Assembly: GCA_024638165.1 (NCBI GenBank)
Contig: JAHEKV010000003.1
Coordinates: 124,001-188,000, forward strand
Source: Flavobacteriaceae bacterium
GTDB lineage: Bacteria > Bacteroidota > Bacteroidia > Flavobacteriales > Flavobacteriaceae
Length of the DNA stretch: 64,000 bases
Direction: 5' to 3'
The notes under the pieces are model-generated. The model was not told the DNA's origin. It ran no database searches and was given only the letters and a program-made list of their open reading frames with translations. This document shows positions 8,853-16,693 of the stretch, in pieces (within the stretch, counting starts at the first letter, position 1; each line of letters begins with the position of its first letter). The translations under genes were made by a program, and so were the position numbers.

Positions 8853-10364
8853 ATGAATAGTCCTAACCCTAATCGTATGCAGAATGCATCGGGGAATAAC
8901 CCGGTGATTTCAATGGAGCGAGGTAAATTGCCACCACAGGCGGTAGATCTTGAACGAGTCGTACTTGGGGCGATGTTAATCGACAAAAAAGGGGTAGATG
9001 AGGTGATCGATATTCTACATAAAGAGGCTTTCTATGTAGAAGCTCACCAACACATTTTTGAGGCTATTTACGATTTATTTCAAGAGACTAAACCCATTGA
9101 TATTCTTACCGTTTCTAATTTGTTGAAGCAAAAAAATAAGTTAGAAAAGGTTGGCGGGGATTATTACTTAATTGATCTTTCTCGTGCGGTTGGTTCTTCG
9201 GCTCACATTGAGTTTCATGCGCGAATCATTTTGCAAAAATTTGTTCAGCGTAGCTTGATTAAAATCTCTACTGAGATCATTGAAGAGGCTTATGGGGATA
9301 ATCAGGACGTGTTTGATTTATTAGATCAAGCTGAGGCCCGACTTTACGAGGTGACTCAAGGAAACTTGAAGCGTTCTGCCGAATCAGCTCAAGATTTAGT
9401 AATTCAGGCGAAGAAGAAAATTGAAGAGATTTCGAACAAAGAAGGTTTAAGCGGTATTGCTTCTGGATTTGAGCGATTAGATACTGTAACCTCTGGGTGG
9501 CAACCGAGTGATTTGATTATCATTGCGGCACGTCCGGGTATGGGTAAAACGGCTCTTACACTGTCTATGGCGCGAAACATTGCAGTGAATTCGGGTCAAC
9601 CTGTGGCTTTCTTCTCTCTAGAGATGTCTTCAGTTCAGTTAATTACCCGATTAATCTCTTCAGAAACGGGGTTAAGCTCTGAGAAACTTAGAACAGGGAA
9701 GTTAGAGAAGCACGAGTGGGAACAATTAAACGTTAAGGTTAAAGCTTTAGAAAAGGCACCACTTTATATTGACGACACTCCTTCACTTTCTATTTTTGAT
9801 TTGAGAGCTAAGGCAAGACGTTTGGCTTCCCAGCATGATATAAAACTAATTATCATCGACTATTTACAGCTGATGACCGCTGGTTCTAGTCAAAAGGGAG
9901 GTAACCGAGAGCAAGAAATTTCGACGATTTCTAGAAACCTAAAAGCACTTGCTAAAGAATTGAATGTGCCGGTTATTGCGCTTTCACAGCTATCTCGTGC
10001 TGTTGAAACAAGGGGGGGTTCGAAGCGACCGTTACTTTCTGACCTTCGTGAATCAGGAGCTATTGAGCAAGATGCAGATATCGTTTCTTTTATTTATCGA
10101 CCAGAATACTATAAAATAGAAGAATGGGATGATGAAGAGCAGTCACCTACTGAAGGTCAAGCAGAACTGATCATCGCCAAGCACCGTAATGGGGGACTAG
10201 ATAATATTCGTCTGAAGTTCATCGGGTCACTCGGTAAGTTTGATAATCTAGATCGTCACGATTCACCTTTTGAGTTTGCCTCAAAAATGAATGATGATAT
10301 CAGTCAAATTCGCCCCTCGATATCAGATGCATTTTCTGATGATGATGACGATATGCCCTTTTAG
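8853..10364 (+). CDS. dnaB: Replicative DNA helicase
   Basis: Hexameric fork helicase. The 503-residue protein has the N-terminal DnaG-interacting domain (P-P-Q-A-V-D-L-E-R-V-V-L-G-A-M-L near 25-40), a linker, and the RecA-like domain with Walker A A-R-P-G-M-G-K-T-A and Walker B I-I-I-D-Y-L-Q-L-M, plus the D-L-R-E-S-G-A-I-E-Q-D-A-D motif. No intein interrupts it. ATG 8853 directly follows the accA stop; the longer start inside accA is rejected. The tail ends in acidic D-D-D-D-D-M-P-F. The stop interlocks with that of the convergent HAD gene (TTAG at 10361-10364). Confidence 0.96.
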   Translation: MNSPNPNRMQNASGNNPVISMERGKLPPQAVDLERVVLGAMLIDKKGVDEVIDILHKEAFYVEAHQHIFEAIYDLFQETKPIDILTVSNLLKQKNKLEKVGGDYYLIDLSRAVGSSAHIEFHARIILQKFVQRSLIKISTEIIEEAYGDNQDVFDLLDQAEARLYEVTQGNLKRSAESAQDLVIQAKKKIEEISNKEGLSGIASGFERLDTVTSGWQPSDLIIIAARPGMGKTALTLSMARNIAVNSGQPVAFFSLEMSSVQLITRLISSETGLSSEKLRTGKLEKHEWEQLNVKVKALEKAPLYIDDTPSLSIFDLRAKARRLASQHDIKLIIIDYLQLMTAGSSQKGGNREQEISTISRNLKALAKELNVPVIALSQLSRAVETRGGSKRPLLSDLRESGAIEQDADIVSFIYRPEYYKIEEWDDEEQSPTEGQAELIIAKHRNGGLDNIRLKFIGSLGKFDNLDRHDSPFEFASKMNDDISQIRPSISDAFSDDDDDMPF

Positions 10365-11158
10365 TGCTTAAGTAGTTCTTGAAGTACCCTTTCAACTCCA
10401 AAATTATCGTGACTTTCAGTAATGAGTGCAGCCATTGTTTTAATCTCAGGGTGGGCATTCCCCATAGCTACGCTATTCGGTGTCATTCGTAGCATTTCAA
10501 GATCGTTGAGGTAATCACCAAATACTAAGATTTCATTGTGATCGATGCTGTAGTAATCTAATAGCTTCTGCAGTGCTACTCCTTTGTTGGCTTTTTTATG
10601 TGAAAGATCAACCCAGTAATCTCCTGATATCTTCACTTGAAGTTCCTTTTCATACTTTTTTACTGCCGGATAGATATGGTGTTCACCGCTGGTCGGATGA
10701 TATAAAGCAACCTTTAATGGGGTATGAAGAATCTCTTCAGTATGGGTTATTTGTTGATGACTTGAGTAATATTCTTCTAGAATCTGAATAAAATCAGGGT
10801 TTTTACTTGGAGTATAGGCTTGATTTGCACAACATACTACAGGCTCAATTTCGGGATGAGAATCAAGTGTGTTTAGTATCTCTTTAACGGTATGAATCGA
10901 TAGCTCCTGTGCATGGATGATCTCTTCATTTTCAACGATCAATGCACCGTTCTCGGCGATAAAACTCATTTTCTCACTGATCTCGGTCAGTTTTACAATC
11001 ATTGATGGATATTGACGTCCGCTAGCGGCAACAAAGCGAATACCTCTTTGATGCATCTGCTCGTGTAGCTCTAAGAAAAGAGGACTAACCTCGTGCTTAG
11101 AATTGAGAAGGGTGCCGTCCATATCTGACACCACCATTTTTATATTGGATAGATTCAT
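10361..11158 (-). CDS. Cof-type HAD-IIB family hydrolase
   Basis: A 265-residue cytoplasmic HAD phosphatase of the Cof type (sugar-phosphate, FMN or PLP phosphatases). Motif I V-V-S-D-M-D-G-T-L-L is near residue 11, motif II A-A-S-G-R near 46, the family K-A-N-K-G-V-A-L, and motif III/IV F-G-D-Y-L-N-D-L-E-M-L near 222. Substrate unknown. ATG at 11158 is chosen; a longer frame would start with TTG inside the rplT terminator hairpin. Only 11 bases separate the hairpin T-tract from this start. Confidence 0.88.
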   Translation of the reverse strand: MNLSNIKMVVSDMDGTLLNSKHEVSPLFLELHEQMHQRGIRFVAASGRQYPSMIVKLTEISEKMSFIAENGALIVENEEIIHAQELSIHTVKEILNTLDSHPEIEPVVCCANQAYTPSKNPDFIQILEEYYSSHQQITHTEEILHTPLKVALYHPTSGEHHIYPAVKKYEKELQVKISGDYWVDLSHKKANKGVALQKLLDYYSIDHNEILVFGDYLNDLEMLRMTPNSVAMGNAHPEIKTMAALITESHDNFGVERVLQELLKH

Positions 11159-11169
11159 AAGTGATAAAA

Positions 11170-11200
11170 AAAATCCTGATACCAAAGGTATCAGGATTTT
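11170..11200 (-). terminator. Terminator of the thrS-infC-rpmI-rplT operon
   Basis: Fourteen-base arms AAAATCCTGATACC (11170-11183) and GGTATCAGGATTTT (11187-11200) enclose a 3-base loop. On the minus strand the hairpin is followed by eight T in all, 21 bases after the rplT stop. Its apex also spells TACCTTTG on the minus strand, which fits the -7 consensus and could serve the HAD gene. Confidence 0.88.
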
Positions 11201-11221
11201 AATAGCGGGGTTGAATAAATA

Positions 11222-11566
11222 TTACTTTACCTTATCGACTAACGCTTTGAAAGCTTCTGGCTGATTCATCGCTAAATCGGCAAGAACTTTACGGTTAAGT
11301 TCGATTTGGTTTTTCTTTAGCGCTCCCATGAATTGTGAATAGGACATGCCGTGCTGTCTTGCGCCAGCATTAATACGGGTAATCCAAAGGGCTCTAAAGT
11401 TTCTCTTTTTATTTCGACGGTCACGGTAAGCGTAAAGAAGGGCCTTCTCTACGGCATTTTTAGCAACGGTCCATACATTTTTTCTTCTTCCGAAGTATCC
11501 TTTCGCTTGCTTAAGGATTTTTTTTCTGCGTGCTCTTGAAGCAACTGAGTTTACTGATCTTGGCAT
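11222..11566 (-). CDS. rplT: 50S ribosomal protein L20
   Basis: A 114-residue basic protein beginning [23 protein letters not shown], with the later [13 protein letters not shown] and M-G-A-L-K-K signatures of L20. It is an early 50S assembly protein binding 23S rRNA. It is the last gene of the operon with rpmI and infC; the 76-base spacer to rpmI holds a possible hairpin (11583-11620), and a strong terminator follows. Confidence 0.97.
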
Positions 11567-11582
11567 ACTAATTTGTTTTTGT

Positions 11583-11620
11583 AGTCGGCGTTCTTTTCGA
11601 ATCTTTAATTGGGCCGAACT
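11583..11620 (-). other. Possible hairpin in the rpmI-rplT spacer
   Basis: On the minus strand AGTTCGGC (11620-11613) can pair with GCCGACT (11589-11583) with one bulged base, closing a 23-base loop, 16 bases before the rplT ATG. L20 and L35 expression is autoregulated by L20 in several bacteria, so a control role is conceivable, but I do not recognise a known leader family. Confidence 0.3.
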
Positions 11621-11642
11621 CCATGGTTAATAAATCCCTTAC

Positions 11643-11840
11643 TTATTTCAGACGAAGTTGTTCTTTGATACTGTTAACGTCTGATTCATGCACTAGGGCA
11701 CTGTGCGTGAGTTTAAGCTTACGCTTTTTTGATTTCTTAGTCAGAATGTGACTTTTGAAAGCGTGCTTTCTCTTGATTTTACCAGAACCGGTCAGCTTAA
11801 AACGCTTCTTGGCACTAGATTTAGTTTTCATTTTTGGCAT
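11643..11840 (-). CDS. rpmI: 50S ribosomal protein L35
   Basis: A 65-residue protein [24 protein letters not shown] with [14 protein letters not shown], diagnostic for L35. It lies between infC (26 bases upstream) and rplT, the usual order. Confidence 0.97.
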
Positions 11841-11866
11841 GATCCTATAATTTAATTACCCGCTAC

Positions 11867-12427
11867 TTATTTTTTTACCACTTTGGGCGCTATGAACATA
11901 GTCATACGCTTACCTTCTAATTGTGGCATTTGCTCCACTTTACCGAACTCTTCTAGCTCTTGAGCTAGTTTGAGTAGTAAAATCTCACCTTGGTCTTTGT
12001 AGACAATCGATCGTCCTTTGAAGAAAACGAAAGCTTTCAGTTTTGCTCCCTCTTTTAAGAATTTCTCAGCATGTCTTTTCTTGAACTCGAAATCGTGTTC
12101 ATCGGTTTGTGGGCCGAATCTGATTTCTTTAATAACCACCTTAGTTGCATTCGCTTTGATTGCTTTTTCTCGTTTCTTTTGTTCGTAAAGAAACTTTTTG
12201 TAATCGATAACCTTACAAACCGGTGGGTCTGCTTTAGGAGAAATCTCAACAAGATCTAACTCTAGACCTTGTGCTACGTTTAATGCCTTAGAGATGGGGT
12301 AGACCCCTATCTCAACATTATCTCCTACCAGGCGCACTTCTCTAGCAGTAATTTCCTGATTGATCTTGTGCGGATTCGAAATTTCTCTTCGACCCTGGGG
12401 TTTAGTGCGTTTTCTGCGTATTGCTAT
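11867..12427 (-). CDS. infC: Translation initiation factor IF-3, apparent AUA start
   Basis: IF-3 binds the 30S subunit, blocks premature joining and proofreads the start codon. The frame contains [28 protein letters not shown] and [15 protein letters not shown] at 12337 would cut off the conserved N-terminus. Reading upstream in frame gives [20 protein letters not shown], the standard Bacteroidota IF-3 N-terminus, immediately preceded by codon ATA at 12427 where family members have Met. No ATG, GTG or TTG is available there, so initiation at ATA (or a neighbouring ATC two codons upstream) is inferred. A rare start codon fits autoregulation of infC by IF-3, as with AUU in E. coli. 186 residues. 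Confidence 0.9.
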
Positions 12428-12451
12428 GGCGATTAAATTTTAGTTCAACTT

Positions 12452-14395
12452 CTATTTAAAAGATTTAAGCGTCTGCTTAATTTCTTCGTTAATAATTTCG
12501 GCAAAGCTTTCGATATCCATAGATCCTAGGCTTTCACCACCGTGCTTTCTAACGCTTATTTGGTTCGCATTTTCTTCCTGCTCACCAACAACAATCATTA
12601 AAGGCACTTTTTTCATCTCAGCCTCGCGTATTTTTTTACCTACGGTTTCATTTCGGGCATCGATAAGGCCGCGAATTTCGTGATTTTCTAATGATTTTAA
12701 AACTTTTTCTGCATATTTTTCGTGTTTCTCACTGATAGGCAGAACAATAGCTTGAACCGGTATTAACCACAACGGGAAATTACCACCGGTGTGTTCAAGT
12801 AGTAGTGCGATAAATCGCTCTAGACTACCAAACGGTGCACGGTGAATCATGACCGGGCGGTGATTTTCGTTATCGCTCCCTTTGTATTGTAGATCAAACC
12901 GCTCTGGAAGGTTGTAATCTACCTGAATAGTACCTAATTGCCACTTACGTCCTAAGGCATCTTTAATCATGAAATCAAGCTTCGGGCCGTAGAAGGCAGC
13001 TTCTCCTTCTTCGATGACATAGGTAAGTCCTTTATTTTTAGCAGCTGTAATAATAGCTTCTTCAGCCTTTTCCCAATTAGCCACTTCACCGATGTATTTT
13101 TCTGGTTTATGAGGGTCTCTTACAGACACTTGAGCGGTGAAGTCTTCAAATCCTAAAGATCCAAGAACATAGAGAGTTAAGTCAATTACGTTTTCAAATT
13201 CTTCGAGTAATTGATCTTGGGTACAGAAAATGTGTGCGTCATCTTGAGTAAATCCACGAACTCTTGTCAAACCGTGTAGTTCCCCACTTTGTTCATAACG
13301 GTAAACGGTTCCAAATTCTGCAAATCGCTTCGGTAGATCTTTATAACTCGAAGGACTATGCTTATAAATTTCACAGTGATGAGGGCAGTTCATTGGTTTG
13401 AGTAAGAACTCTTCATCTTCTTTAGGAGTGTGAATCGGCTGAAAGCTGTCTTCACCGTATTTGGCGTAGTGACCTGAAGTTACATAGAGTTCTTTTTGAC
13501 CGATATGCGGGGTAACTACCATTTCGTAACCCGCTTCTTTCTGTGCCTTTTTTAAGAAGGTTTCTAGACGTTCGCGAAGTGCCGCACCCTTAGGGAGCCA
13601 TAGCGGAAGTCCTTGCCCTACTTTCGGTGAAAAAGTGAATAACTCTAACTCTTTACCAAGTTTTCTGTGATCTCTTTTCTTAGCTTCCTCAATACGTTCG
13701 AGATACTGGGTCAGTTCTTTCTGTTTTGGAAATGAGATTCCGTAAACTCGAGTTAATTGAGGCTTATTTTCATCTCCTCTCCAATAGGCTCCTGCAATAC
13801 TTAGTAATTTGAATGCCTTGATAAAACCGGTGTTTGGGAGGTGTCCTCCTCGACATAAATCGGTGAAATTACTGTGATCACAAAAGGTGATATCTCCGTC
13901 TGTTAAATTCTCAATCAGTTCTACTTTGAACAGATTGTCTTGGGTTTTATAAAAGTCTAGCGCATCAGCTTTTGAAACTGAACGCATTTTGAATTCATGT
14001 TTTTCTCTAGCAATTTCAAGAGCTCTTTTTTCAATCGCTGCAAAATCCTTTTCGCTGATAGCGTGCTCTTTAAAATCGATATCGTAGTAAAAACCTTGTT
14101 CGATCGCAGGGCCAATGGTTAAGTTAACCCCTGGGTATAATTGTTCGATGGCCTGAGCAAGTAGGTGAGCACTTGAGTGCCAAAAGGCTTTCTTACCTTC
14201 ATCATCATTCCAAGTGTATAGGGTAAGCATACCATCGGTTTCTAGTGGAGTGCTGGTCTCAATGGTTTTCTGATTGTAACTTGCAGATATAACATTTCTA
14301 GCAAGTCCTTCGCTTATCGATTGAGCTACCTCAAAAGGAGTGGTTCCTTTGGATACCTCTTTTACCGCGCCATCGGGTAGGGTTACCTTAATCAT
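12452..14395 (-). CDS. thrS: Threonine-tRNA ligase
   Basis: Charges tRNA-Thr and edits Ser-tRNA-Thr. The 647-residue protein has an N-terminal TGS domain (1-60), the editing domain with H-x3-H (H-S-S-A-H, about 73-77), the catalytic core with L-K-P-M-N-C-P-H-H and R-x-R-G-F-T-Q-D-D-A-H, and the anticodon-binding domain near 545-640. The zinc ligands of the core (Cys of M-N-C-P-H-H and later His) are kept. It is the first gene of the leftward operon thrS-infC-rpmI-rplT; infC begins 24 bases downstream. Confidence 0.97.
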   Translation of the reverse strand: MIKVTLPDGAVKEVSKGTTPFEVAQSISEGLARNVISASYNQKTIETSTPLETDGMLTLYTWNDDEGKKAFWHSSAHLLAQAIEQLYPGVNLTIGPAIEQGFYYDIDFKEHAISEKDFAAIEKRALEIAREKHEFKMRSVSKADALDFYKTQDNLFKVELIENLTDGDITFCDHSNFTDLCRGGHLPNTGFIKAFKLLSIAGAYWRGDENKPQLTRVYGISFPKQKELTQYLERIEEAKKRDHRKLGKELELFTFSPKVGQGLPLWLPKGAALRERLETFLKKAQKEAGYEMVVTPHIGQKELYVTSGHYAKYGEDSFQPIHTPKEDEEFLLKPMNCPHHCEIYKHSPSSYKDLPKRFAEFGTVYRYEQSGELHGLTRVRGFTQDDAHIFCTQDQLLEEFENVIDLTLYVLGSLGFEDFTAQVSVRDPHKPEKYIGEVANWEKAEEAIITAAKNKGLTYVIEEGEAAFYGPKLDFMIKDALGRKWQLGTIQVDYNLPERFDLQYKGSDNENHRPVMIHRAPFGSLERFIALLLEHTGGNFPLWLIPVQAIVLPISEKHEKYAEKVLKSLENHEIRGLIDARNETVGKKIREAEMKKVPLMIVVGEQEENANQISVRKHGGESLGSMDIESFAEIINEEIKQTLKSFK

Positions 14396-14417
14396 GTTTC
14401 TTACTCTAATTAGGTGG

Positions 14418-14448
14418 CAAAGATAGTTATATGCCTTTGTCAGCCAAA
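14418..14448 (-). promoter_or_regulatory. Promoter of the thrS-infC-rpmI-rplT operon
   Basis: On the minus strand TTTG (14448-14445), exactly 19 bases, then TATCTTTG (14425-14418) and C: a full match to the Bacteroidota consensus. It leaves a leader of about 20 bases before the thrS ATG, too short for a T-box or attenuator. Confidence 0.85.
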
Positions 14449-14489
14449 GTCTACTTAATGCTTAATTTTGTCTAATCAAAAGTACAGCA

Positions 14490-15119
14490 ATGAATCTATA
14501 CCTAAAGCGCTTATTCCCTTATTTAGTGCTTGTTTTTATTGGGTTTCCCGGTGTTTTTTACCGAAGAGGATGGCTGTTTGAAAGACTAAACGATTGGCAT
14601 TCCCCCTTTTTAGATGGTTGGTTTACTACCATTACTTGGTTAGGTGATGCGACTTTTGCAGTTTTTATTCTCTTGTGGCTGTATTGGTTTAAAAATTATA
14701 AATGGGTATACGCCTTTGTTTTAGGATTTGTTCTGCACGTTATTTTTGTTCACATTTTTAAACAATGGATTGCACATGGATTTGAAAGACCATTTCTGTA
14801 TTATCAGCAAATTGGATTAGAAAGTTCCTTTCATTGGATCGAAGGGGTTGCTATTCGAAAATTGAATAGTTTTCCTTCGGGACATACCGCTACGGCATTT
14901 TTCTTTGCAACTTTTCTTAGTCAGTTGAATAGAAAGGGATTAGTATATCTCTGGTTATTTTTGGCCATCATGGTTGGTTTATCAAGGGTTTATATTGGTC
15001 AACACTGGTTTATGGATATCTATGTCGGAATGTTATTCGGTCTATGGTCTACGATACTTAGCCGGTATTTGGTCAATCGATATCCAAGACCCTGGTTTGA
15101 AAAGCGCAGAAAGCAATGA
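14490..15119 (+). CDS. PAP2-family membrane phosphatase
   Basis: A 209-residue integral membrane protein with about six hydrophobic segments. It has all three PAP2 motifs: K-Q-W-I-A-H-G-F-E-R-P (about 91-101), F-P-S-G-H-T (about 129-134) and S-R-V-Y-I-G-Q-H-W-F-M-D (about 169-180). Such enzymes remove phosphate from undecaprenyl pyrophosphate, phosphatidate or lipid A. The downstream gene overlaps it by 4 bases and encodes an ArnT-like glycosyltransferase, which makes a lipid A or lipid-carrier substrate more likely, but the substrate is inferred. Confidence 0.9.
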   Translation: MNLYLKRLFPYLVLVFIGFPGVFYRRGWLFERLNDWHSPFLDGWFTTITWLGDATFAVFILLWLYWFKNYKWVYAFVLGFVLHVIFVHIFKQWIAHGFERPFLYYQQIGLESSFHWIEGVAIRKLNSFPSGHTATAFFFATFLSQLNRKGLVYLWLFLAIMVGLSRVYIGQHWFMDIYVGMLFGLWSTILSRYLVNRYPRPWFEKRRKQ

Positions 15120-16693
15120 ATCAAATGATATCCTTACTTAGAAAATATCCTTGGCTCACCTTTAGCTTTATTTCTTTTCTTGTTTTTGTACAGTTCAACT
15201 GGAGTTATCCTATTAATATTCTAGACGAAGCAAAAAACAGCGAGGCAGCTCGTGAAATGCTTGAGACCGGTCGATGGTTTTATCCGACCTTCAATGAAGT
15301 GATTCGAACTGATAAGCCGCCCTTGCACTATTTTTTTATGGCTTTGGGGTATCTCGTCTTTGGTGTAGGTCCTTTCGGAGCACGATTCTTTTCAGCCATC
15401 TTTGGTGCGCTAACCTTCTACCTTATTGTCAAGCAAACAGCGAAAGAACTTGGTAATAAAACGGCAATTTATTCGGGGCTAACCTTTATCAGTTCGTTGT
15501 TATTCGCCCATGAATTTCACATGGCAGTACCCGATCCTTACCTGATTTTCACGGTGACCTGGGCAATTATATCCTTTTACCGCTTTGAAAAGGAATCTTC
15601 CAAAGCTCAGTTGTGGACCGCCTATATTGCCATAGGCTTTGGTTTATTAGCGAAGGGACCTATTGCGGCAGTCATTGTACTCTTGTCAGCGGCCTTGTAC
15701 TTTACGCTCACTCAACGGTGGTCTAAATTGTTCACTTACAAGCCATTTGTAGGAGTGTTTATTTCTTTGGCAATCGCTGCACCCTGGTATTATTTGGCAC
15801 ATATTGCGACAGAAGGTGTTTTTACTGAAGGGTTCTTCTTAGATCATAACCTTAACCGCTTCAACGATCAAAAAGAGGGACATGGTGGCCCCTTCATTAT
15901 TACTCCACTGCTTGTTATTGCAGGTCTATTGCCTTTCGGAGTTTGGCTCATTTCTGCACTTGTTAAGGCTTTTCGATTACGACAACGTTCAAATTGGCTT
16001 ACACTCTGCTTCTCGGTCGCTATAGCAGTACTTACTTTTTTTAGTTTATCGAGTACTAAACTTCCGAATTATCCGATGCCTGCTTTTGGCTTTATGACGG
16101 TAGTCTTGGGTTTTTATTTTTCTGAACTGGTCTCTAATCAAAATTTTAAAGCATTGAAAGGTGGGCTCTGGGTATTAACAATACTAGGTGCCTTACTCGC
16201 GGTAGGTGCTTATTTCGGACTAGCAACTCATAGAAGCTTGTTTGTGCACAAGAATTTGGCATTTTTCATCTTGATTCTACCGGTCAGTAGTCTTCTTATC
16301 GTTCTTACTTTAAAAGCAAGATCATTACATCAATCATTACTGCTAACCGCTTTGAGCTGGATGATTTTTGGATCGTTTCTATGGGGGTGTCTCTTCGGTC
16401 AAATAAGTCTTGAATCGCCTGTAGCCAAAGTGTCTCCATATATCAATCAACCTTCTATTCAAACGCTGGTTTATCAGCGAATGGACCCCGCTTTTCCCAT
16501 CCAATTAAAGCAAACGTTTAAAACGGTTCATGAGCGTGAGGTGTTATTAATTGATTCCTCGGTTGATTATATACTGACCAACACCAAGAATAAGGAAGAT
16601 ATTCAGTGGTTAGATACTCACTTTGAGAAAGTGGTAGAGGCTCCTGCACTTTTTGAGGATCATACCACTAGACTCTATCAGCCTATCAAATAA
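15116..16693 (+). CDS. ArnT/PMT-like membrane glycosyltransferase
   Basis: A 525-residue multi-pass protein of the GT-C (GT39/GT83) fold. The first periplasmic loop has I-L-D-E-A-K-N-S-E-A-A-R-E-M, carrying the catalytic-type acidic pair D-E, followed by R-T-D-K-P-P-L-H-Y, the K-P-P motif of ArnT-like enzymes; ten or more hydrophobic segments follow, with a small soluble C-terminus. Members move a sugar from a polyprenyl-phosphate donor to lipid A or protein on the periplasmic face. Its start overlaps the PAP2 gene (ATGA), so both belong to one operon. The 3' end overlaps the convergent ZIP gene by 16 bases. Acceptor unknown. Confidence 0.88.
   Translation: MNQMISLLRKYPWLTFSFISFLVFVQFNWSYPINILDEAKNSEAAREMLETGRWFYPTFNEVIRTDKPPLHYFFMALGYLVFGVGPFGARFFSAIFGALTFYLIVKQTAKELGNKTAIYSGLTFISSLLFAHEFHMAVPDPYLIFTVTWAIISFYRFEKESSKAQLWTAYIAIGFGLLAKGPIAAVIVLLSAALYFTLTQRWSKLFTYKPFVGVFISLAIAAPWYYLAHIATEGVFTEGFFLDHNLNRFNDQKEGHGGPFIITPLLVIAGLLPFGVWLISALVKAFRLRQRSNWLTLCFSVAIAVLTFFSLSSTKLPNYPMPAFGFMTVVLGFYFSELVSNQNFKALKGGLWVLTILGALLAVGAYFGLATHRSLFVHKNLAFFILILPVSSLLIVLTLKARSLHQSLLLTALSWMIFGSFLWGCLFGQISLESPVAKVSPYINQPSIQTLVYQRMDPAFPIQLKQTFKTVHEREVLLIDSSVDYILTNTKNKEDIQWLDTHFEKVVEAPALFEDHTTRLYQPIK

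Follow-up and report, generated by a model that had tools for sequence, protein, structure and literature searches.

The window, by which we mean the whole 64,000-nucleotide stretch of DNA that was analysed, carries on its minus strand the genes thrS, infC, rpmI, and rplT in that order, which is also their order in Escherichia coli. The infC frame, which encodes IF-3, occupies 11867..12427 and specifies 186 residues when counted from an AUA codon at 12425..12427, 24 nt from the stop codon of thrS. Membership of the product in the IF-3 family comes from TIGR00168 (182 bits against a cut-off of 60) and from both Pfam domains: IF3_N (PF05198, 12161..12364; 98.3 bits, cut-off 26.9), where profile positions 1-69 of 70 match residues 22-89 of the AUA-started protein, and IF3_C (PF00707, 11882..12139; 108 bits, cut-off 34.8), where positions 1-86 of 86 are matched. 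The upstream open reading frame, thrS (12452..14395), was named from its sequence and the gene order rather than by a family search, and rpmI (bL35; 11643..11840) and rplT (bL20; 11222..11566), which both open with ATG, were named from sequence. Searching 10000..15500 against Rfam returned no match to any family at the gathering score, leaders of the L20_leader type included.

Read from the upstream in-frame stop, a TAA at 12440..12442 that lies four codons ahead of AUA, the minus strand runs TAA AAT TTA ATC GCC ATA GCA ATA CGC AGA AAA CGC into infC. No ATG, GTG, or TTG occurs in frame between this TAA and the GTG at 12335..12337, which is the first canonical start codon of the frame and which we read as an internal Val codon. 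The first-pass annotation had proposed that infC starts at AUA with no canonical codon nearby, and that a call at GTG 12337 would strip 30 residues from a conserved N terminus. The arithmetic is right, as 12338..12427 is exactly 30 codons, and so is the predicted damage: starting at GTG lowers the TIGR00168 score to 163.2 bits and the IF3_N score from 98.3 to 79.5 bits, and IF3_N is then matched only from profile position 11, with the first ten positions gone.

We compared the start region across 122 distinct Flavobacteriaceae genomes, made up of all 11 of the genus, 98 family genomes (a match was found in 98 of the 100 drawn and all 98 were used; two of them had already been counted within the genus), and further family members obtained by drawing from the order, of which the matched G221, G226, and G235 were left out. 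Start-codon calls were made by a motif rule in 118 genomes and by eye in four. The codon aligned with the window ATA was ATA in 120/122 (117 by rule, three by eye) and ATC in 2/122 (one by rule, one by eye); ATG, GTG, or TTG stood there in none of the 122. The comparison across relatives suggested by the first-pass annotation yields, within the family, a conserved non-AUG triplet. The two genomes with ATC in place of ATA were L044 and L265. Among named records, ATA-GCA was present in 80/80 loci, these being the best 80 of 582 confirmed loci and possibly overlapping with the 122; among their titles are Muricauda/Allomuricauda, Maribacter, Cellulophaga, and Arenibacter, as well as a few MAGs labelled simply Bacteroidetes or Bacteroidia. 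Elsewhere in these 122 infC genes, ATA accounts for 26% of Ile codons and GCA for 32% of Ala codons. As a control, we examined the start of rpmI, which is a fair comparison because Met was optional in the search motif, and found that 134 of 202 family and named loci (many too short) yielded rpmI, which begins with ATG in 133 of them. A second control, rplT, was dropped as circular because its search motif demanded Met.

The same genomes confine the start from both sides. In 36/122, only 0-1 codons separate the in-frame stop from ATA, and codon 4 is an Arg codon (CGT, AGA, CGA, or CGC) in 114/122, a synonymous variation indicating translation of the frame from no later than codon 4. Together these leave about four codons, NNN-ATA-GCA-ATA/ATT, of which the first ATA is the sole near-cognate with hardly any variation. 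On a family IF3 tree (FastTree, N terminus excluded; a short protein, with weak resolution), we counted two changes at codon 1, five at codon 2, 26 at codon 3 (in most genes the Ile codon ATA or ATT), and 52 at codon 4 (in most genes Arg). A canonical codon of some kind lies between stop and domain in 8/122 family genomes: L217, L245, L017 (which has a TTG upstream of the infC ATA), and five of the 11 same-genus genomes (L006, L007, L009, L010, and L011), where ATG occurs in frame 15 codons downstream of ATA, at a position that is ATT in the window. A start at this codon-16 ATG would leave the IF3_N domain whole. It is probably internal, because ATA-GCA-ATA and the Arg/Lys-rich residues that precede it are retained in those five genomes with synonymous changes. 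In L295, the infC open frame starts after an out-of-frame ATC-GCA-ATA, reflecting either a frame break or an assembly error. With conservation throughout the family, a stop just upstream, and synonymous drift just downstream, we regard it as nearly certain from the sequences that translation of infC starts at AUA 12425-12427, as the first-pass annotation had thought probable.

The bases around this codon are also constrained. Base frequencies in the 122 and 80 loci give the context GYC-AUA-GCA-AUW (12419..12430 in the window): base -3 is G, not A, in 105/122 family genomes (86%), base -2 is a pyrimidine in 121/122, base -1 is C in 107/122 (87%), and the second codon is GCA in 117/122. The start-context pattern RYCATAGCAATW has a single match in the whole window, at the infC start, where 0.04 would be expected. 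Farther upstream lies an A-tract at positions -14..-11 (12438..12441) whose register is conserved, with A at -13 in 97% and at -12 in 95% of the 122 genomes, and which is not a Shine-Dalgarno sequence. At rpmI starts, base -3 is A in 78% of 134; in 46 ORFs of the window with the first ATG taken as start, a noisy background, it is A in 18, T in 12, G in eight, and C in eight. A at -3 favours initiation in Flavobacterium johnsoniae, according to the available text of PMC6847099, so that infC combines a weak codon with a non-favoured -3 base. The infC start region is weakly structured (mean folding energy -4.0 versus -9.8 kcal/mol for internal windows). RNAalifold on the 122 sequences from -30 to +36 found no consensus RNA structure, and because a column-shuffle control was equally zero, this result says merely that no structure was found. 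A possible hairpin between -3/-2 and +4/+5, suggested by pairing probabilities, came to just two base pairs and was dropped.

We scored a Shine-Dalgarno match as five or more bases within positions -20..-4 (17 bases). By this measure, 0/122 family genomes have a match at the infC start, so a site of the E. coli type was not found in the family, and random internal windows matched in 49/610 cases in the same family loci and in 52/310 in the class. Matches were present at 6/46 non-canonical infC starts in the other families of the order. Among other orders of the class, they were present at 25/36 non-canonical versus 7/26 canonical infC starts (Fisher p 0.002), a contrast that is indicative only because some class calls were made by eye with the Shine-Dalgarno sequence in view and relatedness is ignored. 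The difference between the family and those orders, whose weak infC starts often have one, suggests a trade-off between codon strength and Shine-Dalgarno. The AUA starts of those orders often carry a match of 6-8 bases, in a phylum where such motifs are otherwise scarce (examples are L073, L078, L088, L089, L314, L335, L336, L348, L353, and L359). Starts of rplT matched in 0/51 family and 0/23 class loci, and starts of rpmI in 27/88 family and 2/51 class loci. The Shine-Dalgarno-like sequences at 27/88 family rpmI starts occur although rpsU is described, in the accessible parts of PMC9976891, as the only gene of F. johnsoniae with an obvious Shine-Dalgarno.

Calls outside the Flavobacteriaceae were made partly by rule and partly by eye, and the counts that follow should be read with this in mind. 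In the remaining families of the order, 121 genomes matched; 51 loci were read and 49 of these assigned: ATA in 22, ATC in 14, CTG in 10, ATG in two, and GTG in one. An order tree of 171 labelled genes has nine codon changes, only two of which cross between the canonical and non-canonical classes. Elsewhere in the class, outside the order, 144 genomes matched, 80 loci were read, and 62 of the 80 were assigned; 36 of these starts are non-canonical and 26 canonical (TTG 16, ATG six, GTG four), and for other classes of the phylum (56 loci read of 109 genomes matched; 33 of 56 assigned), 29 are non-canonical and four canonical. A true ATG in relatives, which the first-pass annotation had named as evidence against its reading, is therefore found in 0/122 genomes of the family, 2/49 of the rest of the order, and 6/62 of other orders. 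Counted mechanically, ATG, GTG, and TTG are absent before the domain in 114/122 family loci, 43/51 from the rest of the order, 33/80 from other orders of the class, and 36/56 from other classes. This distribution points to selection keeping the non-canonical class of infC start in the family and the order, and more loosely outside the order, and the 26/62 canonical starts in other orders of the class imply that a weak start is not indispensable in the phylum. Two members of one family of the order (L046 and L056, family f7) have an apparent ATG start and a shorter N terminus, the other eight read members having CTG; this could be a natural loss of the weak start. Genome G197 has two separate IF3_N matches (L065 and C3:27040-27243); the draft is 84% complete and 5% contaminated, and the second match is a second infC or contamination.

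As judged from these alignments, then, AUA is a conserved start that lacks a Shine-Dalgarno sequence, in an order most of which avoids canonical codons at this position. By analogy with known systems, this start probably lets IF-3 throttle its own production. The initiator tRNA would pair with AUA through a third-position mismatch, which IF3 would reject; when IF3 is plentiful, initiation on infC mRNA would be aborted, and when it is scarce, AUA would be used and IF3 made again. In the Flavobacteriaceae, such a loop would operate without Shine-Dalgarno, on an unstructured A-rich leader. We consider this account as a whole, an AUA start that IF3 rejects and that gives feedback on its own mRNA without Shine-Dalgarno, to be the best explanation and a likely one. 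A bolder version holds that RYC-AUA-GCA is a dedicated, Shine-Dalgarno-independent IF3 sensor in which, with the anti-Shine-Dalgarno hidden, IF3 output is set by nothing but the identity of the start codon and a deliberately unfavourable base at -3; AUA specifically would be required, and the flanks would belong to the sensor; we offer this tentatively, as possible rather than probable.

The explanation that best withstands comparison with feedback is that AUA is the start and is kept because it gives a steady, suitably low output, or through ancestry, and not as an IF3 sensor. A weak start by itself lowers yield, the G at -3, against the A preferred at rpmI, makes the infC context non-favoured as well, and fixation of one codon within the family could be partly ancestry. 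We nevertheless find this explanation unlikely, because drift among ATA, ATC, and CTG with only 3/49 canonical starts in the order is what selection for the IF3-rejected class would predict, and because the available passages of PMC5472188 and PMC13009471 describe such feedback at the infC gene of E. coli. Another possibility is that AUA forms just one part of a longer signal, RYC-AUA-GCA, through which the initiator tRNA, 16S rRNA, or a protein makes extended contact. Near-invariance of GCA at codon 2, although GCA makes up 32% of the Ala codons of these genes, and of the -2 and -1 pyrimidines speaks for it; the failure of RNAalifold to find a consensus structure at the start in the 122 sequences and the looser -3..-1 and codon 2 of the order's other families speak against it, and second-codon preference and limited divergence may account for part of the conservation, so we judge such a signal quite unlikely. 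It is very improbable that infC starts at another of the in-frame candidates, since ATC 12431-12433, even though infC of other families in the order likely starts at ATC, gives way to AGC, GGA, or GAA in all five same-genus genomes with an aligned codon, the second ATA (12419-12421) is another codon in 40/122, ATT 12380-12382, which is the position of the five same-genus ATGs, lies behind conserved residues with synonymous changes, and the codon aligned with GTG 12335-12337 is GTG in just 22 of the 118 family genes readable there (four were not read by motif) and a start at it cuts the IF3_N domain.

The preferred reading, that AUA is the infC start and makes it sensitive to IF3, likely fixes the true N terminus of an essential factor, which annotation tools limited to ATG, GTG, and TTG would truncate across a large family. 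It also offers natural AUA initiation without Shine-Dalgarno in an order that hides its anti-Shine-Dalgarno (the ribosomes of the order sequester it, according to the accessible text of PMC9976891), where one can ask whether IF3 feedback can arise from start-codon identity alone. That IF3 regulates itself by way of a poor start codon is classical; with AUA reported for Staphylococcus aureus infC in the available text of PMC13009471, neither codon nor mechanism is new. New as far as we searched are the family-wide fixation of AUA, the site lacking Shine-Dalgarno, and the conserved RYC-AUA-GCA with G at -3. In the open-access literature, searched by title and start of abstract and partly covered, so that absence is unproven, we found no report on the start codon of infC in Bacteroidota, the Flavobacteriaceae included, and no infC expression, ribosome profiling, or proteomic data for the flavobacterial clade. 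The word infC does not occur in the main texts of the F. johnsoniae papers PMC6847099 and PMC9976891.

Butler, Springer, and Grunberg-Manago reportedly established in 1986-87 that E. coli infC starts at AUU and that IF3 autoregulates it. The flavobacterial gene resembles that one in having a near-cognate AUH start and in losing its N terminus if called at a canonical codon, and differs in that the codon is AUA and not AUU and in that its feedback is something we infer. The first-pass annotation was correct that the codon differs from that of E. coli; its use at infC already had the S. aureus precedent. The E. coli gene moreover has a strong Shine-Dalgarno, as described in the accessible part of PMC1805508, and the flavobacterial gene does not. 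In S. aureus, the same gene starts at the same codon, as located by Ribo-Ret in a 2026 paper whose authors suggest auto-regulation; that paper, in its available text, concerns extended Shine-Dalgarno motifs (PMC13009471), whereas the flavobacterial site is without Shine-Dalgarno in 122/122 genomes. More generally, the accessible passages of PMC5472188 describe IF3 as repressing non-canonical starts, with infC starting at ATT in E. coli and at ATC in Streptomyces in a homeostatic loop. There the non-canonical starts of Streptomyces infC (ATC), a gene often misannotated, and sigR (GTC) are read as an IF3-controlled valve; the codons are different ones, and the IF3 response was measured for sigR, whereas for flavobacterial infC we infer it. 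Within the same order, a parallel is F. johnsoniae rpsU, where, according to the available text of PMC9976891, a translation component likewise controls its own translation through how it starts, using an extended Shine-Dalgarno and ribosomes lacking bS21 rather than a poor start codon.
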